A stretch of 42,156 bases of DNA, from NCBI GenBank assembly GCA_947473045.1, contig CANJCO010000044.1, forward strand, positions 1-42,156, written 5' to 3'. Shown piece after piece: positions 7,309 through 24,529 of the stretch (its first letter is position 1; every line of letters begins with the position of its first letter). The translations under genes were made by a program, and so were the position numbers. This DNA comes from Myxococcales bacterium (lineage in GTDB: Bacteria > Myxococcota_A > Polyangia > Polyangiales > Polyangiaceae). Under the pieces are notes generated by a model that worked only from the letters and a program-made list of their open reading frames with translations, made no database searches and had not been told where the DNA came from.

Positions 7309-7386
7309 GTCTACTGCTCCCTGCGCGCCGGGCACGCAAAAATATGGTTCGCGGCCGCGCCGAATGCGCCAGCCCTGATTGCCGAC

Positions 7387-7665
7387 TTACTCGCCGGCCG
7401 CCGCGATAGAGGGCGCGGAAACGGGTCGCTGGCGCGACACCACGAACGACTCGATGCGAGCGATGGTATCCAGATTCTCGGGGACGATCTCGTCGTCGCT
7501 GATAATGAGTCCGAACCGCGATTCGAGAAACGAAATCACCTCGAGAACACCTGTAGAATCGACGATGCCGGCGTCGATGAGCGAGGCGTGATCTCCCAGC
7601 GACGCCGGGTCGCTCACGAAGAAGTTGTCGGCAATGAACGTGCGTACCTGAGTTCGAATTTCCAT
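7387..7665 (-). CDS. Acyl carrier protein
   Basis: 92-residue acyl carrier protein. The phosphopantetheine site is the DST motif with Ser37 (LIDAGIVDSTGVLEVISFLE), flanked by the acidic helix II and FGLIISDDEIVPENLDTI. The last 15 or so residues are an Ala/Pro/Ser-rich tail. The start is certain in practice: AAGGGGG precedes ATG by seven bases. It lies directly downstream of the AMP-forming ligase gene (28 bases apart), so the ligase is the probable loading enzyme. A free-standing carrier with its own ligase inside a polysaccharide locus suggests delivery of an activated acyl or amino-acyl group to a sugar rather than fatty-acid synthesis. Confidence 0.95.
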   Translation of the reverse strand: MEIRTQVRTFIADNFFVSDPASLGDHASLIDAGIVDSTGVLEVISFLESRFGLIISDDEIVPENLDTIARIESFVVSRQRPVSAPSIAAAGE

Positions 7666-7693
7666 CGTGTCCCCCTTTTTGTTGTCCGATATG

Positions 7694-11238: not shown

Positions 11239-11241
11239 GGT

Positions 11242-12324
11242 TCAGACCTCCTCGACCGGGTCGATGAGCATCGGCCGCTGGTGCAGGTAGGTGCTGCCTC
11301 GGCGCTTGGCTGCGATATCGCGGTAGACGCGCTCAACCTGCTCCGGAGAAAGGGCGAGCAGCGGAGCCACATCAACCGCCGCGAGTCCGTGATTGCAGCC
11401 GTAGAGGCAAGCGTCCATGCGGCGAAGGTCGATTGAAAAGTAGAACTCTTCCTGCGTCTGAGGCAGCGAATAAGTGTCGGTTGTCGGCGTCGAGCTGGTT
11501 ATCTCGTGGGGAACTCCGAGGTAGGTCGCCAGGGCGTAGACTTGACTCTTGTACAGGTGCGCGATGGGCTTGACGTCAGCGTCGCCATCGCCGTGTTTCA
11601 CGAAGAAACCCTGATCATACTCCAGCCGGTTGGGCGTTCCGGCGACGGCATACCGAAGCCGGTCTGCGTGGTAGTATTCAATCGTTTTTCGTATGCGCTG
11701 CTTGAAGTTGGTGGCCGCGACGAGCGCTTGATACGCGTCTGTGGGCATGCGCGCCGTCTGCTCCGACCCGTGCGGAGACTGCACTGTCAGTCGATGAATA
11801 TTGAGCCTGTTGTCACCCAAAATGGGTGGCAGGGTGAGCTTGCAGCGCCAGCCCTCTGCGTATTCAGGAAAGACCTCGCGGATGGCTTCGATCTGCCGGG
11901 TGTAACATCCCAGCGCGGTGAGCGCTGGCGCGATGTCCTCGACGACGGTGGCTACGCCGAGCGCGGTCGCCACCATGGTGCCGAGGCGCAGCGCATCGGG
12001 AGATGAATCGCGCTCCGGCATGAGCACACCGAGCACGTTCTCAGACCCGAGGGCGCGGGCGCACAGCGCGGCGACTACGGAGCTGTCGACGCCGCCGGAC
12101 AAGCCCACGACAGCCCCGCGACGGCGCAGCACGCTGCGCACCTGATGGGAGAGCACCTGACAGATATGGGAGGTGACCTGCGCCGGATCGATGACGAGAG
12201 AATCGTACGGCGACTGAATCTCGCGGGGCCCACGAGGAGCGGGGTGCGGTGCGCCGTTACCTCCCAGGCCCGCGGCGGTCGGCTCGCTTACTTCCGGAAT
12301 GTGGTTTGCAACAGGGATCTGCAT
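11242..12324 (-). CDS. NAD synthase-like ammonia-dependent amidoligase
   Basis: 360-residue member of the NadE branch of the PP-loop (N-type ATPase) superfamily. GAVVGLSGGVDSS at residues 70-82 is the ATP pyrophosphatase loop. YAVAGTPNRLEYDQGFFVKH and DGDADVKPIAHLYKSQVY match the NadE deamido-NAD/ATP site. There is no glutaminase domain, so ammonia would come from solution or from the AsnB neighbour. It could be ordinary NAD synthase, but its place at the head of a polysaccharide run suggests a dedicated amidation role. The first 44 residues look unlike the family. The ATG at 12324 shares bases with the divergent start at 12323, and no other ATG, GTG or TTG start lies between it and the catalytic core. 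Confidence 0.85.
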   Translation of the reverse strand: MQIPVANHIPEVSEPTAAGLGGNGAPHPAPRGPREIQSPYDSLVIDPAQVTSHICQVLSHQVRSVLRRRGAVVGLSGGVDSSVVAALCARALGSENVLGVLMPERDSSPDALRLGTMVATALGVATVVEDIAPALTALGCYTRQIEAIREVFPEYAEGWRCKLTLPPILGDNRLNIHRLTVQSPHGSEQTARMPTDAYQALVAATNFKQRIRKTIEYYHADRLRYAVAGTPNRLEYDQGFFVKHGDGDADVKPIAHLYKSQVYALATYLGVPHEITSSTPTTDTYSLPQTQEEFYFSIDLRRMDACLYGCNHGLAAVDVAPLLALSPEQVERVYRDIAAKRRGSTYLHQRPMLIDPVEEV

Positions 12325-13546
12325 GAAACCACTCAGTGCAAATGCCGTGCTCTGCCTCTCCCGCAGGGCCCACGGCGTATCCGTCGATGGAAAGGTATGG
12401 CTGCGCGGCGAGGGCGAGCTGCGGCTCGGCAAACGGGTGCGCATGGACGCACGAGCCGCGCCCATCGAGCTGAACGTCGAGCGCGGCGGCGTGCTCGAGC
12501 TCGGCGACGACGTAGAGATCGGGCCCGGGGCATCGATCGAGGTGCAGCGTCTGGTGACCATCGGCGCCCGCAGTCGCATCGGCGCCTTTAGCAAGACGCT
12601 CGACGGGCACTTTCACGCGCTCGAGGGCGACAGGAGCAGGAGGCCGCCGCCTGGCCGCGTCGTCGTCGAAGATGACGTCGACGTGGGTCCTCACGCGGTG
12701 CTGCTCCCCAACGCGCACATCGGGCGCGGCTCGGCCGTTCGCGCCGGCGCGGTGGTCTCCCGCAGGTTTCCTGACTACTCCTCAATCGGCGGCATCCCCG
12801 CGGCTGTCAGGGGGCGCACGCGACGAAGCGCGGGCGTCGATCTCTCGGTTATCGTCGCAGTGACGGCGAACGGCGCGGGCTTGCAGACGGCCCTGCGTAG
12901 CGCGCTTTCGCAGACGGGACCAAAGTTGGAAGTACACGTCGTCGACGACAGCGAAGGCGGGGGCGCGCGCGACGCAGCGCTGGGCGACGGCGACCGGCGC
13001 GTCTCGTACATGCGGATGCCTCTCCACGAGGTCGGTCGCGCGGCGGTGCCAGCCAATCTCGGACTCGCCGCGGCGCGCGGAGACTTCGTTCATTTTCTTC
13101 CCGACTCCGGGGTGGTGCGGCCGGGCGCGTACGCGGAGCACGTCTCCGCGCTGCGAGACAACCCCGCCGCGACGCTCACCGTGGCGACCATCGCCCGATT
13201 GCGCGACTCGTCCACGCGGACGGGAAAGATTGAGCTGCTGTCGCGCCTGCTGTTTGGTGGCTCGCCTCCAGCGACCTCGGGCAGCATCTACCGGCTGGAG
13301 GCCCTGCTCCGCGCAGGCGGGCATGATCCGCAGGTCGGGCCGGACGCAGACCGCGACTTGCAGCTGCGCGTACTGCGCGCCGGCGGGAGCGTCTCGGTCG
13401 ACGGTCAGCTTGTGAGCTCGCGCGGGCCGGTCCGTCGCAGCAGGCCTGGGGAGCGGATGCTCCGAGCCTACCGCCAGCAGCGCGGCGACGCTGAATTCTG
13501 GGCACTTCGTGTGCTGCGTGGCCTCGATGAGGCAACGTCGTGGTAG
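12323..13546 (+). CDS. Fusion: hexapeptide acyltransferase + glycosyltransferase family 2
   Basis: 407-residue two-domain protein. Residues 1 to about 168 form a left-handed beta-helix of hexapeptide repeats (LELGDDVEIGPGASIEV, VTIGARSRIGAF, VVEDDVDVGPHAVLLPNAHI) ending in SSIGGIPAAVRG, as in O-acetyltransferases of surface sugars. From about 172 it changes to a family-2 glycosyltransferase: VDLSVIVAVTANG, LEVHVVDDSEGG, NLGLAAARGDFVHFLPD and a later DADRDLQLR. An AGGG sequence seven bases before ATG supports this start. A single chain would couple sugar transfer and acylation. The glycosyltransferase half has a weakened DxD position (LPDSG), so its catalytic competence is open. It overlaps the next gene by seven bases. 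Confidence 0.85.
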   Translation: MKPLSANAVLCLSRRAHGVSVDGKVWLRGEGELRLGKRVRMDARAAPIELNVERGGVLELGDDVEIGPGASIEVQRLVTIGARSRIGAFSKTLDGHFHALEGDRSRRPPPGRVVVEDDVDVGPHAVLLPNAHIGRGSAVRAGAVVSRRFPDYSSIGGIPAAVRGRTRRSAGVDLSVIVAVTANGAGLQTALRSALSQTGPKLEVHVVDDSEGGGARDAALGDGDRRVSYMRMPLHEVGRAAVPANLGLAAARGDFVHFLPDSGVVRPGAYAEHVSALRDNPAATLTVATIARLRDSSTRTGKIELLSRLLFGGSPPATSGSIYRLEALLRAGGHDPQVGPDADRDLQLRVLRAGGSVSVDGQLVSSRGPVRRSRPGERMLRAYRQQRGDAEFWALRVLRGLDEATSW

Positions 13547-14115
13547 CGCTCGCCTCCGAAGCCTCGCGCTTCGCACGCCTGCTCGTTGGAAGCCCCCGGG
13601 CGGCACTTGCGCGCGTCTCCCGCGGCCTCGGCGTCGCCCGCGCCGCCTACCAGTTTCGGCGCTGCGATTGCGGCGAGCTTGTGTTCGCGGAGGGGCCCGT
13701 GCGGGTCGTCGCCGACGGTCATCTTACCATCGGCGCAAGAGCCCAATTCTCACGCGGCCTGCTGCAGACCGAGCTCCTGTGCGGCGAGGGCGCGGAGCTC
13801 GTCATTGGGGAGTATGCGCTCGTCAATTATGGATCGTCCTTTCGCGCGCTGAGGAGCGTGCGCGTCGGCGCGCGATGCCGCGTCGGCTCGATGGTGAGCG
13901 TGCGCGATCACGACGGAGATCGCACCGCGCCGGTGCGCATCGGAGACGACGTGTGGCTCGCCCACGGCGCCGCCGTCGAGCCGGGTGTCACGATCGGCGA
14001 CGGTAGCATCGTATCGACTCGAAGCGTGGTGTGCGACGACGTCCCGCCCCGGTCGCTTGCGATCGGCAATCCGGCTACGTCCATTCCGATCGACGCCGTG
14101 CGGCGAAAGCGTTAA
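13540..14115 (+). CDS. Hexapeptide-repeat O-acyltransferase (LbH/WbbJ-like)
   Basis: 191-residue left-handed beta-helix acyltransferase. The helix coils run from about residue 55 (LTIGARAQFSRG) through VIGEYALVNYGSS, VRVGARCRVGSM with the catalytic-type His in VRDHDGD, and RIGDDVWLAHGAAVEPGVTI. It closes with SLAIGNPATSI. This is the pattern of acetyltransferases acting on sugars or sugar nucleotides. The start is GTG at 13540, with AGG eight bases upstream inside the preceding gene. It overlaps that gene by seven bases, so the two are one unit. With the fusion and the two acyltransferase-3 proteins, the locus encodes four acylation enzymes. Confidence 0.9.
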   Translation: MVALASEASRFARLLVGSPRAALARVSRGLGVARAAYQFRRCDCGELVFAEGPVRVVADGHLTIGARAQFSRGLLQTELLCGEGAELVIGEYALVNYGSSFRALRSVRVGARCRVGSMVSVRDHDGDRTAPVRIGDDVWLAHGAAVEPGVTIGDGSIVSTRSVVCDDVPPRSLAIGNPATSIPIDAVRRKR

Positions 14116-14170
14116 TCGCCCGCAGCGCTCCGGTGGCGCCGCTGGCACAACAGGCGCATGCTTGGCGAAC

Positions 14171-14986
14171 ATGCGCCTCGCCCACGTCTCCGACGCCCAC
14201 CTGCTCGACCTCGCCGCGAAGCCCTCGTGGAAAGATCGCGTGGTCAGCGTCGGGCGACCTCTCGACGCGGCGCTTCGGTACGGGAGGCTCCTCGCCGCGC
14301 TGCGAAGGGCCGCGCAGAGCGCCGCGCATGTGCTGATCAGCGGTGATCTGGCCGAGACCGGATCGCTCGGCCAATACGAGTCGCTCGCGATGGCGCTGGA
14401 CGCGAGCGGCCTCGACGCCGGTCGGGTGACCATGTTGCCAGGCAATCACGATCGCTACGACGCGGACGATGCGTGGGAGCGCGCGCTGCGCGGACCACTG
14501 GCGCCGTGGGCGCAAAGTGCCGCGCACTCCGCGCAGCATGTGGCTATCGAGCTGGGGAGCGCGCGACTCGTGGCGTTCGACGCGAGCCGCACCCAGAACA
14601 TTCTCAGGAGCGCCGGACATGTCTGCGACGCGCTGCTTGAAACCCTGGCAGGCGAAGCGCGCGCGGCGGCGGCGGCCGGCAAGCACCTCGTGCTCGCGCT
14701 GCACCACCCTCCCCACCTCAGCGGAGTGCGCGCGTGGCACGCGATGAACGGGCTGCTCGGCGCGCAGAGACTGATCGACATGATGCGCTCCTGGGCGGCG
14801 ACGACCCTGCTTCACGGCCACACGCACACCGAGCGAATGGTCGCGATCGGGCAGCATCGTGCGTATTCGGCGAGCGCCACCGTCTCCGAGGGAGCCCGCG
14901 GCGTCGCCTTTTACGACGTCGGCGAGCGCTCGCTCACCCGCGCCGCGCCGACGAGCCTCGTCAACTCCCGGACCTCGTCGAAGTAG
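14171..14986 (+). CDS. Calcineurin-like metallophosphoesterase
   Basis: 271 residues carrying all metal-binding blocks of the calcineurin-like superfamily in order: HVSDAHL at the N-terminus, ISGDLAE, PGNHDRY, a HHPPH block and LLHGHTHTER near the C-terminus. It should hydrolyse a phosphoester with two metal ions. No signal peptide is evident, so it is cytoplasmic. The family contains UDP-diacylglucosamine hydrolase, cAMP phosphodiesterases and lipid-linked phosphatases; this one cannot be placed further. Its last 26 bases overlap the 3' end of the convergent MMPL transporter gene, a tight tail-to-tail arrangement between the polysaccharide and lipid regions. Confidence 0.9.
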   Translation: MRLAHVSDAHLLDLAAKPSWKDRVVSVGRPLDAALRYGRLLAALRRAAQSAAHVLISGDLAETGSLGQYESLAMALDASGLDAGRVTMLPGNHDRYDADDAWERALRGPLAPWAQSAAHSAQHVAIELGSARLVAFDASRTQNILRSAGHVCDALLETLAGEARAAAAAGKHLVLALHHPPHLSGVRAWHAMNGLLGAQRLIDMMRSWAATTLLHGHTHTERMVAIGQHRAYSASATVSEGARGVAFYDVGERSLTRAAPTSLVNSRTSSK

Positions 14987-17435
14987 CGCGACTCGCCGCG
15001 ATCTTGCTCGCCGCGACAACCGCCGCCGGAAGCGCCACGAGCGCCGCCGACAAACATGCGACCTCGCCCACGACGGCAAACAGGCCGAACAGATGCAGCG
15101 CGCGGTTGTCCGCGAACAGGAGCGACGAATAGCCGATAATCGTGGTCAGCGAGCAGAGCGCGACTGCCCCGCCGGTCGTACGCAGGGCGCCGGTCAGATC
15201 GCCGGTCTGACTCGCTCGACTAAACACGTTAACCGCATAGTCGACGCCGATTCCGAACGTAATCGGGAATGCGATGAAGTTCGCAAAGTTGACCTTGGCG
15301 CCCATAAACATGGTCGCAGCGAGCATCCACGTCACGCCCACCACCAGAGAGGCGATCACCCAGATTGTCGCGCGGCTGCGCCGAAACACAGCTACGACTA
15401 CGAACGCGACACCGACGAAAGCCAGCAACGTCACGCGAGGACCGTCGCGCGCGACGCACGAGACAATGTCGCTCGACAGAGGAAGCCCCCCCGCCACCCG
15501 TGGCGGGCGACCTCCCATTTTTTGGGCGGCCGACGACGACGCATTGCGCAGCCCCGCGATGAAACGACGCAGCGTCTCGCCCTCCCACAGCGCGCCCCGA
15601 AGTGACGGGAACACGAGCACGATGCGCCCGCTCTCGCCTCCCGACTCACGCAGGCCGGCGCAGAGCGCGCGCGGCACGTCATCGAGCTGAAATACAGACA
15701 GCTCCCTGCGACCCAGCCACGCCTCCACGCGATCGCGCTGAGCCGCGCTGAGCCCGGCGCGAACGCGCGGCGTCAGGTCGAGCTTCATCTCACGAACAAG
15801 CGCGATCTTTGCGGCCTGCCCTGTGGGCACCACGTCGTCGATGCTGCGCACCCGCGCCACCGTATCGCCCAGCTCCGGAACGCCGGCGCGGAGGGTGGCA
15901 GCGACCGCGCGAGCCTCGGCTGCGCTGTCGGTGAGCACCGCCACCGGCGTTAGGTACTGGCCCATCACGGCGTTCATGCGGGCCCCCCAATAGGCTTCAC
16001 CGCGCGTCCACGTGTCGCGGCGACGGAGCTTCGACAGATCGGTCTCCATGTCGGCAGGCCCAAATCCGCTTACCTGGGCGCATGCCAGAACGAAGAGCGC
16101 CAGCGAGGCAGCGGCCACGATGACGGGCGCGCGCCCAACCAGTCGCGCGAGCGCGCCGGAGAAGCGCCCGCGCCCCGGCTGAGTGGATGGAAGCCGGCCG
16201 CGGTCCACCCACGCTGCGAGCGGTGGCACCAGCAAAAAGGCGCACACCCAGCTGGTAAGCATTCCGAGTCCGCCAATCACCCCAAACTGCCGAAATCCCT
16301 CAAACTGCGTGAACGCGAGCGCCGCATACGACACGCTCGCGGCGAGGGCGGCGGCGAGCGTGCCTCGGCGCGCGCCGGCCACCGCGACGACAAGCGACTC
16401 CTCAACTGGCGATCCAGCGCGCCGCTCCTCGACATAGCGGGCGAGGAGGACAATTCCGAAGTTGACCCCGTTGCCGACGATGATCGAGCCGAGAAAAGCG
16501 GTATTGGCGTTGAGAACGCGTACCCCGAATGCAGGGAGCGAGGCGATGGAGAACGCGTAAACCGTCGCGAGCATGAGCGGAGCAACGAGCACCAGCAGCG
16601 CGGGCAACCACCTGAAATACAGGACAATCACCACCCCAACCGCCACAAGCACCACCGCCGACGTCCACGAAAGATCGTCCATGAGCGCCTCGGTCTCCTC
16701 GACTGATGCGGCCACCTCCGCAGCGAACCCGACACGCATCCCTGGCGCGTAGGCGGCGACGCCCCCCAGCGCGGCGATATCCGACTTCACCTTTGCGAGC
16801 AGCGCGCGATCGCGAGCCACCGACGCCGGACCTCCCCCGACGTCGATAAGCATGAGCGACGTCGCCTGCTCAGCGCTTGAGAAGCGGCCCTGCGGCAGCG
16901 TCGACGCCGAGCGCTGCGCGTATTTTTCCTCGAGGTCGGTCACGTCGATGGGCGGGGGCGGCGCGTCCTCGTCGAGTAGGGTTCCTTGCGCGCGTGACAC
17001 CTCCCAGTCGCGCCTCGCCACAATTCGCTGGCGCACGCGCTCGAGGTCGTCCAAATCGACGTAGAGCGGAGCGCGATCGGACAAGAAGGTTCGTTCCTCG
17101 GCAGTGCCGACGCTGACGCCCGATACCCACAAAGCGGGATACTGCTTTACCCGGCGCGCGAGGTCGTCGATGAACCGCTCGGCGGCCGGCACGTTGCCCC
17201 CGCTCGCGGTGTCGACCACCACGGCGAGGTGCGACAGGCCGGGGGCGCGCATGCGAAGCTCGGCGAGGGCGACCACGCTGGGGGCGTCGCGCGGGAGCAG
17301 CTGCTCGAAGTCTGCGTCGAGGCGGGCGTACAGCGAGGCGGTGCGCTGGGCGGCGGGCAGTCCGAGCGCGAGCGCGAGGAGCCAAATCCAGCGGCCATAT
17401 TGTAGCACGAATCGCACGTAGGCGCGCGCGGTCAC
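14961..17435 (-). CDS. MMPL/RND-family lipid exporter (HpnN-like)
   Basis: 824-residue RND-superfamily protein with the MMPL layout. TM1 (WIWLLALALGLPAA) is followed by a periplasmic loop, about five helices (LVAVGVVIVLYFRWLPALLVL, NANTAFLGSIIVGNGVNFGIV), a second loop after SGFGPADMETDLSKLRRRDT, and a second helix bundle (FANFIAFPITFGIGVDYAVN). The paired GNGVNFGI and GIGVDYAV helices supply the proton-relay positions. Close kin move hydrophobic molecules such as hopanoids or mycolates to the outer membrane. As the last gene of the inositol-lipid operon (GTG at 17435 overlapping the pgpA-like stop as GTGA) it is the natural candidate to export the operon product. That substrate assignment is inferred from position only. 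Confidence 0.9.
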   Translation of the reverse strand: MTARAYVRFVLQYGRWIWLLALALGLPAAQRTASLYARLDADFEQLLPRDAPSVVALAELRMRAPGLSHLAVVVDTASGGNVPAAERFIDDLARRVKQYPALWVSGVSVGTAEERTFLSDRAPLYVDLDDLERVRQRIVARRDWEVSRAQGTLLDEDAPPPPIDVTDLEEKYAQRSASTLPQGRFSSAEQATSLMLIDVGGGPASVARDRALLAKVKSDIAALGGVAAYAPGMRVGFAAEVAASVEETEALMDDLSWTSAVVLVAVGVVIVLYFRWLPALLVLVAPLMLATVYAFSIASLPAFGVRVLNANTAFLGSIIVGNGVNFGIVLLARYVEERRAGSPVEESLVVAVAGARRGTLAAALAASVSYAALAFTQFEGFRQFGVIGGLGMLTSWVCAFLLVPPLAAWVDRGRLPSTQPGRGRFSGALARLVGRAPVIVAAASLALFVLACAQVSGFGPADMETDLSKLRRRDTWTRGEAYWGARMNAVMGQYLTPVAVLTDSAAEARAVAATLRAGVPELGDTVARVRSIDDVVPTGQAAKIALVREMKLDLTPRVRAGLSAAQRDRVEAWLGRRELSVFQLDDVPRALCAGLRESGGESGRIVLVFPSLRGALWEGETLRRFIAGLRNASSSAAQKMGGRPPRVAGGLPLSSDIVSCVARDGPRVTLLAFVGVAFVVVAVFRRSRATIWVIASLVVGVTWMLAATMFMGAKVNFANFIAFPITFGIGVDYAVNVFSRASQTGDLTGALRTTGGAVALCSLTTIIGYSSLLFADNRALHLFGLFAVVGEVACLSAALVALPAAVVAASKIAASRATSTRSGS

Positions 17436-17896
17436 GGGATGATCCCCCCCGCGCGCAAGACCGCGAAAATCGCCGCGACGTAGGCGCCGGCACCGACGTC
17501 ATCGAGCACGATGCCGTACCCGCCCGGCAGCTCCGACTCGAGCAGGTGCACGGGCCATGGCTTGAGGGTGTCGAAGACTCGGAACGCCACGAGGCCCGCG
17601 AGGGCGTACCGCCAGTCGTTTGGGCACGTGAGCAGGGCGACGAGCACACCGGCGACCTCGTCGATCACGACGATCTGCGGATCGCTCACGCCGAGCTCGC
17701 CCGCCACCAGACTCGACGACCATATGCCCACTACAGTGACCACGACTGCACCGGCTGCCACGAGCCATACGCCTCCTGCAGCGCGCAGCAAGAAGTAGAG
17801 CGGAAGCGCAGCGACCGAGCCAGCCGTTCCGGGAGCGATCGGCACGTAGCCGGCCCCGAACCAGGTCGCGAGGGCGCGCGCGATTCGTTGCCTCAT
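17432..17896 (-). CDS. PgpA-family phosphatase (phosphatidylglycerophosphatase A-like; candidate phosphatidylinositol-phosphate phosphatase)
   Basis: 154 residues with the full PgpA pattern: APGTAGSVAALPLYFLL, the acidic IVVIDEVAGV, FRVFDTLKPWPV and GGYGIVLDDVGAGAY. There are four predicted helices; this is an inner-membrane enzyme. PgpA removes the terminal phosphate of phosphatidylglycerophosphate. In bacteria that make phosphatidylinositol by way of phosphatidylinositol-phosphate, a PgpA relative does the equivalent step. Here it lies downstream of an inositol-phosphate synthase and a CDP-alcohol phosphatidyltransferase, so phosphatidylinositol-phosphate is the more likely substrate (inference). 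ATG at 17896 overlaps the upstream stop as ATGA and starts the family domain directly. Confidence 0.92.
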   Translation of the reverse strand: MRQRIARALATWFGAGYVPIAPGTAGSVAALPLYFLLRAAGGVWLVAAGAVVVTVVGIWSSSLVAGELGVSDPQIVVIDEVAGVLVALLTCPNDWRYALAGLVAFRVFDTLKPWPVHLLESELPGGYGIVLDDVGAGAYVAAIFAVLRAGGIIP

Positions 17897-18807
17897 GCCG
17901 CGCTCCGAGCGCCAGTGTGGCCGAAGCGCGTCACGGCCCACGCGACAAGCGCATAAGACGCGGCGCAGTAGACAATGCCCAGAACGACATCGATAAGCCA
18001 GTGATGGTCGAGGTAGACCGCGGCAAAGGCCATAAGGGCCGCAAAGCCGCACGAGGCCGCGCGCGCCCAAACCGAAAAGCTGCGCCAGCCCTCGGCGACG
18101 ATGAGCGCCGGATACGCGACGTGCAGCGATGGAACGCTACCGAATACGTCGTTGGATCGCCCGTACAGGCCGCGAAAATAGGAAAATCCGAGCCACGCGT
18201 CGACGCGCAGCAGGTTCGGTCCCGCGCTCGCGACCGCGCCGAGGTCGACCGCGCAACCCCTTTGGTGAAAGTACCAGGGAGGCGCGGCGGGATAGACATG
18301 ATACGTGGCAAATCCAAGTACGTTCATTACGAAGAAAGTCCAGCCAAAGCGCGCCATGGCGCCGCGGTCGCCGCGCAGGGCGAGCCCCAGGGCGAACGCG
18401 ACGGTCACCGCTACGAACGTGCCGTACGGCAGCGCGCAAAGCCGGTCGAGCCACGCGGAGGGATGACGCTGAAGCCAGTCGTGGACTGTCTCGCCACCAC
18501 TGCCGAACAGCAGCGCGTCGAGCGCGCGCAAGTCGCAAACGTGCACCCGGCCCGCCGACAGGCCCACATTCTTGACGTACCGCATCGCGTCGTAGAGCAA
18601 GCCGACGAGCACGAAAGGCAACATGGACACCATCAGGCGGCGGCTGCGCCAGTGGGCAAACGCGAGCGCGGGGCCGACCACCACGCACGCCGCGTACTCC
18701 CACCTGTGCTCGCCGGCGATGAGTCTCGAGGCCCCCCATGCGACCATCGGCGCCGCACCCCCGATCGCAAGGGCGCGCGCGGACGCACGCTCGGGAGGCG
18801 CAGTCAC
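17893..18807 (-). CDS. PAP2/Aur1-like membrane enzyme (candidate inositol-phosphoceramide synthase)
   Basis: 304 residues with about eight hydrophobic segments. The PAP2 catalytic blocks are in the second half: SVPSLHVAYPALI (first catalytic His) and YLDHHWLIDVVLG (second His and Asp). They follow YHVYPAAPPWYFHQRG, a stretch found in the inositolphosphotransferase (Aur1/Ipt1-like) branch rather than simple phosphatases. Such enzymes move inositol phosphate from phosphatidylinositol to ceramide, releasing diacylglycerol. In this operon that is the best fit, though a plain lipid phosphatase is possible. GTG at 18807 overlaps the aminotransferase stop as GTGA and was preferred to a TTG four codons upstream. 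Confidence 0.82.
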   Translation of the reverse strand: MTAPPERASARALAIGGAAPMVAWGASRLIAGEHRWEYAACVVVGPALAFAHWRSRRLMVSMLPFVLVGLLYDAMRYVKNVGLSAGRVHVCDLRALDALLFGSGGETVHDWLQRHPSAWLDRLCALPYGTFVAVTVAFALGLALRGDRGAMARFGWTFFVMNVLGFATYHVYPAAPPWYFHQRGCAVDLGAVASAGPNLLRVDAWLGFSYFRGLYGRSNDVFGSVPSLHVAYPALIVAEGWRSFSVWARAASCGFAALMAFAAVYLDHHWLIDVVLGIVYCAASYALVAWAVTRFGHTGARSAA

Positions 18808-20213
18808 GCGTCGCGCCAAAAGCCGTCTGCTTTTGCCCAGTCGAAGACTTCACGCAAAATCGCGATTCCGTTCGCTGCCGTCGCCGAATCGATGGTCAGC
18901 GCGGGCTGGAGGCGCAGGCGCGGCGCGTAGCTCATGGTGAGCAGGCCTCTGCGAAGACTCTCCTTGAAGATCCGCAGGCTCGAGCTGGCAGACAGCGGCG
19001 CTCGGGTCGCCTTGTCGCGCACGAGGTCGATTCCGAGCATCAGCCCCCGGCCTCCCACGTGGCCGACGAAGGGATAATCGTCTACGAACGCTTCGAGCTC
19101 GCGCAGCATCGCAGCGCCAACGCGGCCCGCGTTTTCGACGAGCCCCTCTGAATCGATGGCCGCGAGCGTAGCCGCCCCCGCCGCCGCCCCAAGCGGATTA
19201 CCGCCGTAGCTCGAAGACGATCCCGACGCGTTCGACCACGGCGCCGCGCGCGCGATCGCATCCGTCGTAAGAATCCCGGTGAGCGGAAACCCGCCACCGA
19301 ACGCCTTCCCGAGCGTGACGATATCGGGCATTGCGCCGGAGTGGTCGACACCCCAGTACCGTCCGGTGCGACCAAACCCGGTAATCATTTCATCGGCAAT
19401 CAGCAGGGCGCCGTGCTCATTGGCCAGATCGCGTATCGCGGGCAGAAAGTCGTCCGGGGGCGCTACGTTTCCTGCGGTTCCCTGAACAGGCTCGACGATG
19501 AAGGCAGCGATGCTGCCTCCAGACGCTGCCTTGAGTTGCTTGCGGCCAATCTCGACGCAGGCCAGGCCACACGAGGGGTGCCGAAGCGACATCGGACACC
19601 GGTAGCAGTCGGCATACGGGATTTGGTGGCCGCCCGGCGCCAGCGGTCCGACTCCCGATTTGGCGGACGACCCGAGCAGCGACATGGCGCCGAGTGTCTT
19701 GCCGTGAAACCCGCCCCAGAAGCTCACGACCTCGTGTTTGCCGGTGGCGCTCTTGGCGAGCCGAAGGGCGCTCTCCACCGCCTCTGCGCCGCTGGTGTAG
19801 AGCTGAAGCCGGTGCAGCTCGCGCCGCGGTGCATGGTCGGCGACGCGCTCTGCGAGGTCGACGCGCGGCTGCGTCGTGAAGGCGCCGACGCTCAGACGCG
19901 CCGCCTGCCTCGTGATCGCTCCGACGACGGCGGGGTGACTGTGGCCGAGCGATCCGACGCCGATGCCGCCGATGAAGTCGAGCAGGACGTTGCCGTCGAC
20001 ATCGACGAGCGAGCTGCCGAAGCCGCTCTCGATGGCGACCCCCGACAGCAGGGCATATCCTTGCAAACCCGGGGCGATGTGCTCGTCTTCGCGCTCGCGC
20101 AGCTCACGACTCCTGGGGCCCGGAACGGCGGTGCGCAAGTGCACCCTCTGATCGCGCCACAGCGCCCGATGGGCGTCTCGCGAGCGGACCTGATCGTGCT
20201 CAATGACCTGCAT
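18804..20213 (-). CDS. Class-III PLP-dependent aminotransferase
   Basis: 469-residue fold-type-I enzyme of the ornithine/GABA aminotransferase class. Landmarks are LYTSGAEAVESALRLA, FWGGFHGKTLGAMSL, the PLP-ring Asp274 in LLIADEMITGFGRTG and the Schiff-base Lys303 in TLGKAFGGGFP. It also has a four-cysteine insert, C203-x2-C206-x8-C215-x3-C219, just after the substrate/cofactor domain start. This could bind a metal. The substrate is unknown. Its place between an oxidoreductase/phosphatidyltransferase pair and an Aur1-like enzyme suggests amination of a ketone or aldehyde made in this pathway, such as an inositol head group or a lipid precursor. The start is well supported by GGGAGG four bases ahead; it overlaps the upstream gene by 14 bases. 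Confidence 0.9.
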   Translation of the reverse strand: MQVIEHDQVRSRDAHRALWRDQRVHLRTAVPGPRSRELREREDEHIAPGLQGYALLSGVAIESGFGSSLVDVDGNVLLDFIGGIGVGSLGHSHPAVVGAITRQAARLSVGAFTTQPRVDLAERVADHAPRRELHRLQLYTSGAEAVESALRLAKSATGKHEVVSFWGGFHGKTLGAMSLLGSSAKSGVGPLAPGGHQIPYADCYRCPMSLRHPSCGLACVEIGRKQLKAASGGSIAAFIVEPVQGTAGNVAPPDDFLPAIRDLANEHGALLIADEMITGFGRTGRYWGVDHSGAMPDIVTLGKAFGGGFPLTGILTTDAIARAAPWSNASGSSSSYGGNPLGAAAGAATLAAIDSEGLVENAGRVGAAMLRELEAFVDDYPFVGHVGGRGLMLGIDLVRDKATRAPLSASSSLRIFKESLRRGLLTMSYAPRLRLQPALTIDSATAANGIAILREVFDWAKADGFWRDA

Positions 20214-20997
20214 GGCTGACCTCCCGGGTCGTCGTCTTGTGGGCGCGCAGCGCGGCTGCGAGGGACCGAAATCGGCTAAGCGCCGAGGTGTTGGCGATCA
20301 CCGCGATGCCGGTGAGGGCGACCGCGAGCGGCGTCAGCGCGAGGGCGCGAGAGGTCGAAAAACACAGCAGCACGCCCGACGCGGCCGAGCCGAGCACCAG
20401 CACCATCGCGCGCTCCGGGCGACGCATCGAACCTCCGGGCACCGCGAGGTGCAGCGGGCCGCGGGCGTACACTTCGGCCTTCGCCGACGCTAAGGTGACG
20501 TGCTGCGCTCCCGCCGAGGCCGCCAGCACGAGCGCAAGGAGCGGCAGTGAGTCGCGCCATCCGAGCGCGAGTCCGAGGTAGATCGACGACTCGCACGCGC
20601 GATCGACGGCGCTGTCGATCACCTCGCCCGCCTCGGATGCAGTGCCCGTTGCGCGGGCGACCAACCCGTCGATGGCGTCGCATGCAAACGCGAGCGCCGC
20701 GAACAGCGCGCCGCCGCCGTAGTGCCCCGTCGCGAACGCCACGCCGGACGTCGCCGCGAGCGGCAGCGACGCCATCGTCACGGCGTCTGCAGAGACTCCG
20801 GCACGCGCAAGGCCACGCGCGATGGGCTGCAAAGCCCAGTAACCCGCCGTCGCCGCGCCACGTCCCAGCAGCACGCCCTCGACGAGTCGGTCGACGCGAG
20901 CGTACGACGGTCGCGCCGCCCGGCCGACCGACAGCCACGCGAGTGCCCCGATCGCGAGCAGCATCAGGAGGATCATCGAGGAGAGCAGGTCGATCAC
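20200..20997 (-). CDS. CDP-alcohol phosphatidyltransferase (candidate phosphatidylinositol-phosphate synthase)
   Basis: 265-residue membrane enzyme with a textbook CDP-alcohol phosphotransferase motif, D-x2-DG-x2-AR-x8-G-x3-D-x3-D, read here as CDAIDGLVAR, then G, then VIDSAVD. Four to six membrane helices surround it. The family joins a CDP-linked lipid or alcohol to an acceptor alcohol. With inositol-phosphate synthase as a pathway partner, the likely reaction is CDP-diacylglycerol plus inositol-1-phosphate to phosphatidylinositol-phosphate. GTG at 20997 overlaps the upstream stop as GTGA and comes just before the first helix. It might instead make another phospholipid head group. Confidence 0.88.
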   Translation of the reverse strand: MIDLLSSMILLMLLAIGALAWLSVGRAARPSYARVDRLVEGVLLGRGAATAGYWALQPIARGLARAGVSADAVTMASLPLAATSGVAFATGHYGGGALFAALAFACDAIDGLVARATGTASEAGEVIDSAVDRACESSIYLGLALGWRDSLPLLALVLAASAGAQHVTLASAKAEVYARGPLHLAVPGGSMRRPERAMVLVLGSAASGVLLCFSTSRALALTPLAVALTGIAVIANTSALSRFRSLAAALRAHKTTTREVSHAGH

Positions 20998-22046
20998 GCC
21001 GGGCTCCGCTGCGGCGCCGACGCCAGCGACCGCGCCTGGCCTCCCTGCCGCGACGAGTCGTACGCGCCGGCGATCGACTCCATCGCACGGACGGAGTCTT
21101 CGGTCTCGCGCGACACCCAGTCGCCGACGCGAATCGCGCGAGAAAAGCCAGACAGCACCCCCTCGAACCAGGGGCCGTGCCCCGCGTCCGACCACTCCGA
21201 CGGCAGCTTGCTGCGCTCGACGCGCGCGAGGCCGTCGCGGTCGCGGATCACCAGCTCGAGGTCGTCGTCGTCGACGCGAATCGCCCCGCGCTCGCCGTGA
21301 AGCGTGTATATTACACGCCGCATGCCGGCGTTCCACGTGAGGTGCGCGCGGAGGCGACCCGTCGGAAAAGAAGCCGCCAGGCTGACCTCGTCATCGACGC
21401 CCACGCCCGCTTTCGACTCCGCCCACGCCGAAACCTGCGTCGGGTAGGAGCGGAGCCACTCGAACGCCAGATACAAAGTGTGAGGTCCGTGATCCATCAG
21501 CACGCCTCCCCCGGCGAACTGGGCGTCACGCCTCCAGTCGGGATGCCACTCCCGTACCCCCTTGGCGTGCCCCGTGCGAAAGGTGCTCATCGTCACGAGG
21601 TTGACCGCGCCGATTCGCCCGCGTTCGATGACGCTCTGAACGGCGCGAACCACGGGCGCGTGACGGTAGCTGTGCGCGGGATAGAGCACGCGCTTCTCGC
21701 GCGAGGCCAGCGCGGTCATGGCCCGCGCCTGATCGGCCCCCAGGGCGAGCGGCTTCTCGCAGAGCACGTGCAGCCCCTTCGCGAGCGCCGCCGAAGCGAC
21801 GCGCGCGTGCTCGGACGGGGGCGCACAGACGTCGACGAAATCGAGCCGCTGCGCGAGCAGCATCTCGTCGCACGTCGCGTAGATTTGCGCGTCGGGAAAG
21901 GCGCGCTGGGCGAGCGGCCTCCGCAGCGCGCACGTCTCTGCGATCGCCCGAATTTCGAAGCGCGATCCGCAAGCGCGATACGCCGGCGCGTGCCCGTTTT
22001 CGGCGATGTATCCGAAGCCCACGATGCCCCCTCTCAACGTCTCCAT
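20994..22046 (-). CDS. Gfo/Idh/MocA family NAD(P)-dependent oxidoreductase
   Basis: 350 residues. The N-terminal Rossmann fold is GGIVGFGYIAENGH. The family motif EKPLA appears as VLCEKPLALG, and the substrate-side helix includes GGGVLMDHGPHTLYLAFEW with a His two turns after the catalytic-type Asp. Members oxidise or epimerise sugars and inositols. Being directly after inositol-phosphate synthase, an inositol or inositol-phosphate dehydrogenase role is a reasonable guess; a sugar dehydrogenase for a glycolipid is the alternative. ATG at 22046 is supported by GGGGGA six bases upstream; the stop of the preceding gene lies 13 bases away. Confidence 0.87.
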   Translation of the reverse strand: METLRGGIVGFGYIAENGHAPAYRACGSRFEIRAIAETCALRRPLAQRAFPDAQIYATCDEMLLAQRLDFVDVCAPPSEHARVASAALAKGLHVLCEKPLALGADQARAMTALASREKRVLYPAHSYRHAPVVRAVQSVIERGRIGAVNLVTMSTFRTGHAKGVREWHPDWRRDAQFAGGGVLMDHGPHTLYLAFEWLRSYPTQVSAWAESKAGVGVDDEVSLAASFPTGRLRAHLTWNAGMRRVIYTLHGERGAIRVDDDDLELVIRDRDGLARVERSKLPSEWSDAGHGPWFEGVLSGFSRAIRVGDWVSRETEDSVRAMESIAGAYDSSRQGGQARSLASAPQRSPA

Positions 22047-22059
22047 GACCAATCCCCCG

Positions 22060-23394
22060 TCACGCGGCTGGCGCGGCAATTTGCTCGAACTCTTCGGACA
22101 GCTCCTGCTCGGTTGGCGACGGCGTCGCGGCGAGCTCGCGGTCTCCCATGAGGCGCCGCAGCTCGTTTTTGAGCATGCGCATCTGCAGAAACAGGTTGTG
22201 AACCGACGCGTCGCCCGGGCGCGCCATGGGCGCCTTGAAATAGAAGCTCAGCCAGTCCTGGATTCCGACGCCCCCGCTGCGCTTCGACAGGTCGAGCAGC
22301 AGCGCCAAATCGAGCACGAGCGGCGCCGCCAGAATCGAGTCACGGCACAGAAAGTCGATCTTGATGGCCATGCTGTAGCCAAGCCAGCCAAACAGGTCGA
22401 TGCAGTCCCAGCCTTCTTTCGAGTCACCGCGAGGAGGGTAATAGTCGATTCGAACTTTATGAACCATGTCACCATACAAATCGGGATTTTCGGCGGGCTC
22501 GAGAATCGAGTCGAGCACGCCCAGCTTCGACGCCTCTTTCGCCTTGAAAGCCCCGGGATCGTCCAGCACTTCGCCGTCGCGATTGCCAAGAATATTGGTC
22601 GAATACCAACCATGCAGACCGAGGCTTCTCGCGCGGAGTCCTGGTGCCAATATGGTCTTCATCAGCGTCTGACCTGTCTTGAAGTCCTTCCCGGCTACCG
22701 GCACCCGCTGCTCCCGCGCGAGCGCCTGCGCTGCCGGAAAGTCGACCGCTAGATTCGGCGCGCCGTTCGCGAACGGGACTCCCTCCTGCAGGCACGCCCA
22801 CGCGTACAATTGTGAATTGGAAATCGCCGCGTCACTCTTGCGGAGCCCGTCCTCGAACGCCGCGACTGACTGATGAACCGCCGTCGGCACATGATGCACC
22901 TCGGTAGAGCCGCACCAGATGGCCACGGCGCGATCAGCCCCCTTGCTGGCGATGAACTCACGAATATCGGCGCGGAGCTGTTCGACCATATCCGCCTTGT
23001 TGGGCGCGCGCTTCACATGGGTTCCACTGAGTCGCTTCACCCACTCCGGGTAAAATGCGCCGCGCATGGGCTTGATGGCCGACAGTTCGTCGCGCACCAG
23101 CGCCAGATGCTTGTCGGAGAGAACCTTGGCGTGCTCGGCGGCCTCGAAGGCGGACTCCGGAAAGATATCCCACCCGCCGAATTCGATTCGGTCGAGCGGC
23201 TGCAGCGGAACGTAGTCGCACACGCGGTGCGAGCCATCCCGGGTCCTCACCGATCCCATCTGCGTGAGGGATCCGACCGGCGCCGCGAGTCCGCGACGCG
23301 CGAGCAGAACGCCGGCGATGAAGGTCGTCGCGACAGCGCCCATCCCCGGCAAGAGGACAGCCAGCTTTCCCTGCGGTTTATCAGGCGTATGCAT
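22060..23394 (-). CDS. ino1: myo-Inositol-1-phosphate synthase
   Basis: 444 residues. The NAD-binding loop is LAVLLPGMGAVATTFIAGV. Family blocks are VPVAGKDFKTGQTLMKT with the active-site lysines, YSTNILGNRDGEVL and KIDFLCRDSILAAPLVLD. It converts glucose-6-phosphate to myo-inositol-1-phosphate and commits carbon to inositol. This looks like the longer bacterial type that accompanies inositol-lipid genes. The ribosome site decides the start: AAGGA lies six bases before the ATG at 23394 but abuts the ATG at 23400. It is the first gene of the seven-gene operon that runs to 14961 and is divergent from the flippase-like gene. Confidence 0.95.
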   Translation of the reverse strand: MHTPDKPQGKLAVLLPGMGAVATTFIAGVLLARRGLAAPVGSLTQMGSVRTRDGSHRVCDYVPLQPLDRIEFGGWDIFPESAFEAAEHAKVLSDKHLALVRDELSAIKPMRGAFYPEWVKRLSGTHVKRAPNKADMVEQLRADIREFIASKGADRAVAIWCGSTEVHHVPTAVHQSVAAFEDGLRKSDAAISNSQLYAWACLQEGVPFANGAPNLAVDFPAAQALAREQRVPVAGKDFKTGQTLMKTILAPGLRARSLGLHGWYSTNILGNRDGEVLDDPGAFKAKEASKLGVLDSILEPAENPDLYGDMVHKVRIDYYPPRGDSKEGWDCIDLFGWLGYSMAIKIDFLCRDSILAAPLVLDLALLLDLSKRSGGVGIQDWLSFYFKAPMARPGDASVHNLFLQMRMLKNELRRLMGDRELAATPSPTEQELSEEFEQIAAPAA

Positions 23395-23534
23395 CAACAT
23401 TCCTTCCGGGTTCGGACGTCACTCGCTACGGCGGTGTGGTGCGACGGTCGTGCCAGCGTGCGACGCAGGGCGCGGATCGGGATTTCGCGGGCGGGATTGC
23501 CCAGAGGGCGCGCGTGGCGGCGGGCCGACGGTTG

Positions 23535-23574
23535 CCCGGTGCGGGAGCCGTATTGGCACGCGCCGCGCACCGGG
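23535..23574. promoter_or_regulatory. Inverted repeat just upstream of the flippase-like start
   Basis: A perfect 9-base dyad, CCCGGTGCG (23535-23543) and CGCACCGGG (23566-23574), is separated by 22 bases. It sits in the 187-base divergent region between ino1 and the flippase-like gene. The right arm ends seven bases before ATG 23582, so as RNA the stem would cover the ribosome-binding region; as DNA the arms could be an operator. No sigma-70 promoter elements could be read with confidence around it. GC-rich chance pairing is possible. Confidence 0.3.
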
Positions 23575-23581
23575 TGCGCCC

Positions 23582-24529
23582 ATGCAGTTCATGGAAATCG
23601 CCCGCGCTCGCGGTGTCCGAGCGCTCGTTGCGTGCGTCGTCACTGCGGGCCTGTGCTTCGCCGCGCTTAGCGCGTCGCAACAGCCGCCCGGGGCCCTTCT
23701 CGCCCGAATCGGCGGGACGTCTCCCTTCGCGTTTTTCGTGGCCGCAGCAGGCTGGTTGGTGCTCGTTTCGGTGCAGTGCCTTCGCTGGCACCTCGTGGCG
23801 TCGCGTGTCGGAAAGCTCTCATTTTCTGAGGCTTTGGCGCTTCGTGCGATTGGCAATCTGGCCAACACAGTCCTTCCTGCGCGCGGAGGGGACGCCGTTC
23901 GCGTCGAGCTGTTTCGCGCGCTCGCGTCGACGTCGCGCGCCGCGGTTGTCGGCGCCGAGCTGGCCGACGTGTGGCTCGACAAAATCGGCTGGCTGCCGTC
24001 GCTGCTGCTGGTTTGCGCGGTCGGCTCCCCCCCGGCATGGGCGGCCCGCGCGGCGATGCTGATGACCGTACTCATCGCGGCCGCATACGCGCTCGCAACG
24101 TGTGCGCGTCGGCTCGCGCGGCGCCCCGACTGGCTCGAAGCCGTGCTGACCGGGATCGCGCCGCCAGGGCGCGCCGGCGCATGGCTCGCGCCGCTGCTGA
24201 TCACGCCGCTGCCCTGGTTGCTCGAGACCGCGGTGCTCATGGGAGTCGGTCGCGTGGCCGGCATCGAGCTTGGGCCCACCGGCGCCTTCGTGCTGCTCAC
24301 CGCGCAGAACCTGGCCCTGATCGTGCCAACACCCGCGGGGCTGGGGGCCGCCGAGGCGGGCGCCGCCAGCGCGCTCGTGGCCCTTGGGTTCCCGCGCGAG
24401 GCGTCGCTGACCTTCGCGGTCGTGTATCGGCTCGGCCAGCTCGGAGCGATCGTCGTCGCCGGGGTCGTCGCGGCGCTGCTGGTCGCCCGCAAGCTAAAGC
24501 GTGCGCGGGCGCTCGCTCCCGCGCGGTGA
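23582..24529 (+). CDS. Flippase-like membrane protein (lysylphosphatidylglycerol synthase TM/UPF0104 family)
   Basis: 315-residue polytopic protein with about eight helices. It has the UPF0104 pattern: a first helix after the start, SVQCLRWHLVASRVG, AIGNLANTVLPARGGDAVRVELF (the N-x-hydrophobic-P-x-R-G-GD-x-R motif) and IVPTPAGLGAAEAGAASAL near the C-terminus (the P-x-G-LG-x-x-E motif). Relatives move lipids or lipid-linked sugars across the inner membrane. It is divergent from the inositol-lipid operon, so flipping its product is an attractive guess. The ATG at 23582 has only a weak ribosome site (GGGTG); a second ATG lies nine bases on. Confidence 0.87.
   Translation: MQFMEIARARGVRALVACVVTAGLCFAALSASQQPPGALLARIGGTSPFAFFVAAAGWLVLVSVQCLRWHLVASRVGKLSFSEALALRAIGNLANTVLPARGGDAVRVELFRALASTSRAAVVGAELADVWLDKIGWLPSLLLVCAVGSPPAWAARAAMLMTVLIAAAYALATCARRLARRPDWLEAVLTGIAPPGRAGAWLAPLLITPLPWLLETAVLMGVGRVAGIELGPTGAFVLLTAQNLALIVPTPAGLGAAEAGAASALVALGFPREASLTFAVVYRLGQLGAIVVAGVVAALLVARKLKRARALAPAR

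Follow-up and report, generated by a model that had tools for sequence, protein, structure and literature searches.

A dehydrogenase-aminotransferase pair in a myxobacterial inositol-lipid operon may indicate an aminated inositol head group

Why should an operon for inositol lipids carry a dehydrogenase and an aminotransferase? The question is posed by a 42,156-nucleotide stretch of a Myxococcales bacterium (assembly GCA_947473045.1, contig CANJCO010000044.1; hereafter the window), one of the 138 contigs of a 5.15-Mb genome, on whose minus strand seven genes follow one another at 14961-23400. They encode myo-inositol-1-phosphate synthase (MIPS; gene ino1), a Gfo/Idh/MocA dehydrogenase, a CDP-alcohol phosphotransferase (CDP-AP), a class-III pyridoxal-phosphate (PLP) aminotransferase, an Aur1-like PAP2 protein, a PgpA-like phosphatase and an MMPL exporter. 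A first-pass annotation had taken the set for a complete inositol-lipid route with its own exporter. To our knowledge, phosphatidylinositol and inositol phosphoceramide are both made without the help of a dehydrogenase or an aminotransferase; such a route leaves the two without a job, and both are absent from sister operons of the phylum, so the annotation cannot stand as a full account. We lean, by a small degree, towards an operon that makes and exports a phospholipid with an aminated inositol head group.

An inositol-lipid core and two additional genes

The CDP-AP holds the complete signature DxxDGxxARx8GxxxDxxxD (residues 107-132), and among NCBIfam models it scores best with archaetidylinositol-phosphate synthase (79.9 bits) and phosphatidylinositol-phosphate (PIP) synthase (NF045883, 69.5 bits), both below cut-off; the equivalog cut-off of NF045883 (170 bits) is passed in 0 of 187 Myxococcota genomes. 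A Foldseek search with its AlphaFold model (predicted local distance difference test, pLDDT, 93.9) gave 18 matches at E <= 0.001, all of them PIP synthases (Mycobacterium, Renibacterium) or AF2299, and the first phosphatidylglycerophosphate synthase appeared at E 0.17, after PIP synthases, AF2299, IPCT-DIPPS and phosphatidylserine synthase. The PAP2 protein passes the cut-off of PF14378 PAP2_3 (78.3 against 27 bits) and falls short of that of the general PF01569; its sole NCBIfam match is phosphoinositol dihydroceramide synthase (NF052609, 142 bits, under the 480-bit cut-off), and phmmer against the PDB (E <= 0.1) returned two AUR1 sequences only (best E 6.4e-14). Its motifs PSLH and DHHWLID, which we take to be the PAP2 catalytic His/His/Asp motifs, are invariant in 8 aligned sequences save positions 5-6 of the second. 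The possibility that these two proteins are glycerol- or undecaprenyl-specific was rejected on these grounds: the CDP-AP falls with the PIP synthases in both sequence and fold and the PAP2 protein with AUR1 in sequence, and the grouping with glycerol or undecaprenyl enzymes for which the first-pass annotation had proposed a check did not occur. A housekeeping role of the CDP-AP was rejected as well, since the genome has three others (a pgsA over cut-off, a pgsA/cls-like gene below cut-offs and a pssA-like gene at 106.6 of 107 bits), which leaves the operon copy dispensable for that purpose.

The ino1 gene is the single match in its genome at E <= 0.001, and the PgpA-like gene is the sole match to PF04608, so that its product might also serve phosphatidylglycerol besides PIP. 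Among genomes carrying the whole operon or part of it (carriers only were counted), 14 of 16 have ino1 somewhere, including those where it does not adjoin. With the MMPL gene in place, the annotated idea of an inositol-lipid operon with an exporter is borne out, and we are highly confident that this is a dedicated inositol-phospholipid operon. Its gene families, organization, conservation and residue changes are established at the level of sequence.

The dehydrogenase model (pLDDT 92.8) matches 50 listed folds at Z 33.7-37.5, including levoglucosan dehydrogenase, GenD2 (6nor), WlbA, scyllo-inositol dehydrogenase, KanD2 and an inositol dehydrogenase homologue; judged from this model, the scores are too close to tell the substrate and indicate the family only. 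GenD2 is related to it by sequence as well as fold. By profile score the protein is a Gfo/Idh enzyme but not IolG, as it reaches 54.6 bits against the inositol 2-dehydrogenase model TIGR04380 (cut-off 355 bits). Arg157, His160, Arg172 and Arg173, invariant in 30 sequences, would suit a phosphorylated substrate. The aminotransferase is one of the best conserved proteins of the set (52-71% identity to 8 relatives), with Lys303, Asp274 and Arg434 identical in 9 of 9 aligned sequences; no NCBIfam cut-off is reached among the best 25 of its 69 rows. The conversion of a ring C-OH to C-N is plausible for such a pair because a dehydrogenase and PLP aminotransferase route is known from gentamicin biosynthesis, where GenD2, GenS2 and the N-methyltransferase GenN turn a ring hydroxyl of gentamicin A2 into an N-methylamine in vitro and no product is reported unless all three are present (PMC4340712).

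To see how firmly the pair is tied to the lipid genes, we surveyed the best 80 of 249 aminotransferase relatives found from an alignment of nine, a sample picked by aminotransferase similarity; the titles are mostly Myxococcota/Deltaproteobacteria, Bdellovibrionota (Bdellovibrio, Oligoflexia, Bacteriovoracaceae) and Candidatus Binataceae. An operon-type CDP-AP (at least 90 bits) lies within 6 kb of the aminotransferase in 53 of the 80 loci, a count to be read knowing that the hidden Markov models were built from the window and L014-L024 and that some survey loci are the same contigs and match by construction (e.g. L027/L016, L029/L015, L035/L021, L036/L018, L039/L024). Within the same distance, the dehydrogenase (> 400 bits) is what most often accompanies the aminotransferase and CDP-AP genes (41 of 53), ahead of PAP2 (33), GtrA (30), MMPL (23), ino1 (22) and PgpA (11); where both flanks are complete (29 loci), the respective figures are 26, 19, 21, 14, 14 and 7. 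Where Polyangia-type loci have ino1 nearby, the dehydrogenase gene stands between it and the CDP-AP gene; in loci of the Bdellovibrionota type (e.g. L042, L052, L068) it immediately precedes ino1. A search of the 187 Myxococcota genomes, among them that of the window, found the aminotransferase (E <= 1e-120) in six, next to a CDP-AP by coordinates in all six, and the dehydrogenase (E <= 1e-60) in five, again next to a CDP-AP in each. The module is rare in the phylum, yet it holds together. Named strains with the genes are Minicystis rosea DSM 24000 and Anaeromyxobacter oryzae Red232. Relatives of the window operon have a GtrA gene between those of the CDP-AP and the aminotransferase.

Sister operons were sought around other PIP-synthase-like genes, in 20 regions that measured 9.7-19.5 kb. 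Several contain ino1 and CDP-AP with GtrA, MMPL, PAP2 and/or PgpA and neither extra gene (e.g. L142, L144, L145, L151, L153 and L154). These plain Myxococcota operons share the window's gene families, MMPL included, but lack the dehydrogenase and aminotransferase, and their CDP-APs have Arg and Ala/Gly at the two positions discussed below. The aminotransferase occurs in two of the 20 regions (L157, L158), in L158 without the dehydrogenase.

Some side observations belong here. Plain ino1-CDP-AP-MMPL operons, often with GtrA, PAP2 and PgpA, are also seen at L141, L148 and L150, and a single-contig 8-Mb sequence (G193) has two plain operons (L141, L142). At L018:6260-7465, CDP-AP and GtrA domains are joined in one protein, which hints that GtrA acts directly with the head-group synthase, and at L019:10924-12078 a radical-SAM gene lies between the CDP-AP and aminotransferase genes, perhaps for a further head-group modification.

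Residue changes in the phosphotransferase

If the acceptor were aminated, the CDP-AP might carry traces of it. In the Mycobacterium tuberculosis PIP synthase MtPIPS, Arg155 and Arg195 are reported to bind the phosphate of inositol phosphate, Ser132 to contact a bound anion, and Lys135 possibly to contact the inositol ring, the K135A variant being partly inactive; in RsPIPS, the signature part of the third transmembrane segment (TM3) lines the nucleotide site, with the acceptor pocket between TM4-6 (PMC4634129). We tallied CDP-AP frames of at least 75 bits with a complete signature, counting identical core stretches once (98 rows, 99 with the window) and leaving out the low-scoring CDP-APs (31-55 bits) beside aminotransferase loci of a second type (see below) and two L054 fragments. 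Rows were called unlinked when their flanks contained no aminotransferase, the flanks being about 1.5 kb on each side for 24 of 42 rows and wider regions for the other 18.

The residue that follows the signature's second glycine (position 86 of MtPIPS, reckoned backwards from Asp93) is Glu in all 57 aminotransferase-linked CDP-APs, whereas the 42 unlinked ones have Ala (37) or Gly (5); it is the most discriminating of the well-filled columns compared in the 99-row alignment. At the Lys135 position, the linked proteins have Thr (33), Ser (17) or Arg (7), and the unlinked ones Arg (24), Lys (17) or Gln (1). A hand-picked set of 18 unlinked proteins, operon-type or outside the main PIP-synthase branch, gives Ala (17) or Gly (1) at position 86 and Arg throughout at the Lys135 position. 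Arg155 is kept in 55 of 56 linked relatives (one gap) and in 42 of 42 unlinked ones, and Ser132 in 56 of 56 linked relatives. The corresponding residues of the window CDP-AP are Glu125 (position 86), Ser171 (Lys135), Thr168 (Ser132) and Arg196 (Arg155); a conserved Asn236/Arg242 stretch lies in the region where a counterpart of MtPIPS Arg195 would be expected. An acid gained and a base lost is, we infer, the change that would fit an acceptor bearing an amine.

The proposed pathway and its rivals

In the pathway that we envision, and of which we infer all substrates, the sequence of reactions, the site of modification on the ring, ceramide as an acceptor and the export, Ino1 would convert glucose-6-phosphate into inositol-1-phosphate, and the Gfo/Idh/MocA enzyme would oxidize a single free hydroxyl of the ring to a ketone, which the class-III aminotransferase would convert to an amine, probably using glutamate. 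The CDP-AP, adapted to the aminated acceptor, would then couple the aminated inositol phosphate to CDP-diacylglycerol, the PgpA-like phosphatase would strip the spare phosphate, the Aur1-like PAP2 protein could hand the phospho-head-group to ceramide, and the MMPL protein would shift the lipid towards the outer membrane.

The rival that survives best is a plain route like that of Bacteroides, yielding ordinary phosphatidylinositol and inositol phosphoceramide, with the extra pair working elsewhere, for instance on inositol isomers or in amino-acid supply. All enzyme families of the plain route are present, the CDP-AP keeps Arg155 and the signature motif, and ceramide phosphoinositol has been reported in Myxococcus xanthus (cited in PMC9246714). 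However, the dehydrogenase is the most frequent companion of the aminotransferase and CDP-AP genes, the sister plain operons do without both extra genes, and the linked-clade CDP-APs differ at a position that may contact the ring; we regard this explanation as unlikely.

A second rival, to which we give somewhat less credence still, has the pair aminating another target, such as the lipid backbone or a later substituent, or the aminotransferase acting as something else; some class-III enzymes act as racemase or phospho-lyase. Consistent with this, among PDB sequences the aminotransferase is matched best by an archaeal entry named '4-aminobutyrate aminotransferase', with racemases and ethanolamine-phosphate phospho-lyase among the further matches, and a second group of loci has aminotransferase relatives with HAD, NTP-transferase and radical-SAM genes and no ino1 in the stretches examined. 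Against it stand the placement of the dehydrogenase gene, between ino1 and the CDP-AP gene or just before ino1, and the alteration of the CDP-AP at an acceptor-side position. That the Gfo/Idh enzyme epimerizes inositol phosphate for a lipid of scyllo- or another isomer, amination being a side or regulatory reaction, is very improbable: scyllo-inositol dehydrogenase is among the dehydrogenase's fold matches, but this leaves no role for the so well conserved aminotransferase.

Several observations weigh against an aminated head group itself. The linked CDP-APs form one clade (56 rows; Shimodaira-Hasegawa-like approximate likelihood-ratio test, SH-aLRT, 93; one change), so the residue pattern is one evolutionary event that is not statistically testable and may be lineage drift. 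Seven of the 57 linked CDP-APs keep Arg at the Lys135 position; these rows (L017, L105, L158 and the Anaeromyxobacter-type branch, to which the A. oryzae strain belongs) are basal to the linked clade in the drawn tree, whence the glutamate would have come first. Glu125 shares the predicted helix 122-146 with the signature aspartates 128 and 132 and may, by analogy with RsPIPS, lie closer to the nucleotide than to the acceptor. Twelve of the 53 loci have no dehydrogenase above 400 bits within 6 kb (9 of the 12 with an incomplete flank), and one genome, G118, has the aminotransferase and CDP-AP and is not among the five with the dehydrogenase. Since 27 of the 80 loci lack an operon-type CDP-AP nearby, many of them sharing another neighbourhood without ino1, members of the aminotransferase family are not exclusive to this operon, and the low-scoring CDP-APs of that neighbourhood, as seen in L090, L101 and L104 only, have Ala/Gly at the place of the glutamate. 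Two of the 16 carriers have no ino1 (G035, 82% complete; G183, 98% complete), and the operon's proteins are below the cut-offs of named NCBIfam models, among the matches listed.

Weighing these points, we still place the aminated head group first. We consider the odds about even that Myxococcota and Bdellovibrionota make an undescribed class of amino-bearing lipids, phosphatidyl-aminoinositol and in some lineages aminoinositol phosphoceramide, through an inserted dehydrogenase-aminotransferase pair and a refitted phosphotransferase active site. No description of an aminoinositol or inosamine lipid was found in the open-licence PubMed Central literature at the level of titles and starts of abstracts, where absence is not proven. 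If true, this would be a new head-group chemistry, and the amino group would alter membrane-surface charge; we speculate that it could matter for cationic-peptide resistance, predation and self-recognition. Both phyla are known for predators.

How far ceramide is involved is a separate matter. The first-pass annotation had left serine palmitoyltransferase (SPT) to a genome search, which met with partial success: an SPT-like alpha-oxoamine synthase is encoded outside the window, at G000:C33 in the same genome, but it reaches 309 of 640 bits for NF047600, slightly less than for the BioF model (319), and is over no cut-off. A second BioF-type gene elsewhere in this genome adjoins a gene resembling bioD by eye. 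A relative of the SPT-like protein (E <= 1e-80) occurs in 7 of the 16 carrier genomes, and 14 of the 53 loci have a strong PAP2 (> 350 bits) close by; as a general feature, a ceramide link thus looks weak. With strong PAP2 proteins so few, their distribution suggests that the general product is probably a glycerophospholipid, ceramide transfer being a variant in operons such as the window's. The G000:C33 stretch (L109 1732-9233) also encodes an AMP-ligase and an acyltransferase of the lipid A type, together with what look by eye like two ketosynthases and two acyl-carrier proteins; this cluster could serve sphingoid-base or other alpha-oxoamine lipid synthesis.

The second aminotransferase neighbourhood (L090 6118-14041, L104 4305-14318, L077 3525-14138 and similar) consists of a HAD hydrolase, an NTP transferase, an unassigned protein, the aminotransferase and a second HAD hydrolase, with a Gfo/Idh gene 1.7-2.8 kb further along and a divergent CDP-AP whose N-terminal part is long (the cluster is found in 12 loci); in L104 the radical-SAM gene adjoins. 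It is possibly another amino-alcohol phosphodiester pathway. On a plasmid of Streptomyces sp. NBC_01601 (L025, 5856-13532), a Gfo/Idh gene with 34% identity is found close to a class-III aminotransferase only 25% like the window's, together with nucleotidyltransferase-family, adenylyl/cytidylyltransferase-family and NUDIX genes, possibly an aminocyclitol-type pathway; we did not use it as evidence.

Operon layout and relation to known systems

The features are collected in Table 1. The description of seven named families in a row, joined by short overlaps, holds: each protein is over the curated Pfam cut-off of the expected family kind, and four junctions overlap, by 4 bases (MMPL/PgpA, 17432-17435), 4 bases (PgpA/PAP2, 17893-17896), 14 bases (aminotransferase/CDP-AP, 20200-20213) and 4 bases (CDP-AP/dehydrogenase, GTGA at 20994-20997). 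The last follows from the CDP-AP start, a GTG at 20997 that overlaps the dehydrogenase gene end and gives 265 amino acids (aa) as against a 378-aa mechanical frame. The PAP2/aminotransferase junction is a gap with the PAP2 start at 18747 and a 16-base overlap with that at 18819; the dehydrogenase/ino1 junction is a 13-base gap with the ATG at 22046 and a 20-base overlap with the TTG at 22079. The same gene order recurs in relatives, so the arrangement is not due to chance. A scan of 23300-23700 found no promoter or terminator.

Table 1. Genes of the operon and its divergent neighbour (window coordinates).
Feature	Coordinates	Strand	Evidence and proposed role
ino1, myo-inositol-1-phosphate synthase, 446 aa	22060..23400	-	PF07994 278 bits, PF01658 106 bits
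Gfo/Idh/MocA dehydrogenase, 350 aa (ATG) or 361 aa (TTG 22079)	20994..22046	-	PF01408, PF22725, PF02894 over cut-off; proposed inositol-phosphate dehydrogenase
CDP-AP, 265 aa, PIP-synthase-like	20200..20997	-	signature motif, NCBIfam, Foldseek, residue tally
Class-III PLP aminotransferase (AT3), 469 aa	18804..20213	-	PF00202 316 bits; proposed keto-inositol-phosphate aminotransferase
PAP2_3/Aur1-like membrane protein, 284 aa, start possibly 18819	17893..18747	-	PF14378; proposed head-group transferase to ceramide
PgpA-like phosphatase, 154 aa	17432..17896	-	PF04608 135 bits; proposed lipid head-group phosphate phosphatase
MMPL/HpnN-like RND exporter, 824 aa	14961..17435	-	PF03176 84.5 bits; TIGR03480 HpnN 168 bits, below cut-off
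LPG_synthase_TM (flippase-like) membrane protein, divergent neighbour	23582..24529	+	PF03706 79.9 bits; TIGR00374 45.6 of 43.2 bits (longer frame)

The divergent neighbour is possibly tied to the operon in function, by analogy with BT_1521, a lysylphosphatidylglycerol-synthase homologue reported near both Bacteroidetes inositol-lipid clusters (PMC9246714). On the other side, 3159-14986 carries genes of surface-polysaccharide type: O-antigen ligase/Wzy_C, Wzz, an AMP-ligase, asparagine synthase, an NAD-synthase-like gene, a hexapeptide-glycosyltransferase fusion, another hexapeptide transferase and a metallophosphoesterase.

With the gentamicin enzymes GenD2 and GenS2 the operon shares a Gfo/Idh-type dehydrogenase and a PLP aminotransferase; the gentamicin pair acts on an antibiotic sugar rather than on a lipid head group. 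The Mycobacterium and Renibacterium PIP synthases (PgsA1, RsPIPS) are the nearest solved folds of the window CDP-AP and share its signature and Arg155, but the window protein has Ser for Lys135, Thr for Ser132 and Glu for Ala86.

The closest functional parallel comes from Bacteroides thetaiotaomicron. Inositol lipids are described as relatively rare in Bacteria, and in this species they are reported to depend on BT_1526 (MIPS), BT_1523 (CDP-AP/PIP synthase), BT_1525 (a PgpA-family PIP phosphatase) and BT_1522 (phosphatidylinositol-dihydroceramide synthase), whereas deletion of the GtrA protein BT_1524 left them unaltered by thin-layer chromatography; the words dehydrogenase and aminotransferase are absent from the main text of that paper (PMC9246714). 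Like BT_1522-BT_1526, the window has MIPS, a CDP-AP with the full motif, a PgpA-like phosphatase and a PAP2 protein together. Unlike that cluster, the window operon is without GtrA (the CDP-AP and aminotransferase genes overlap, and none of the seven is GtrA), although its relatives have one; its CDP-AP is altered at the Ala86 and Lys135 positions and its proteins are below the NCBIfam equivalog cut-offs; and to the shared core it adds a Gfo/Idh/MocA dehydrogenase, a class-III aminotransferase and an MMPL exporter.

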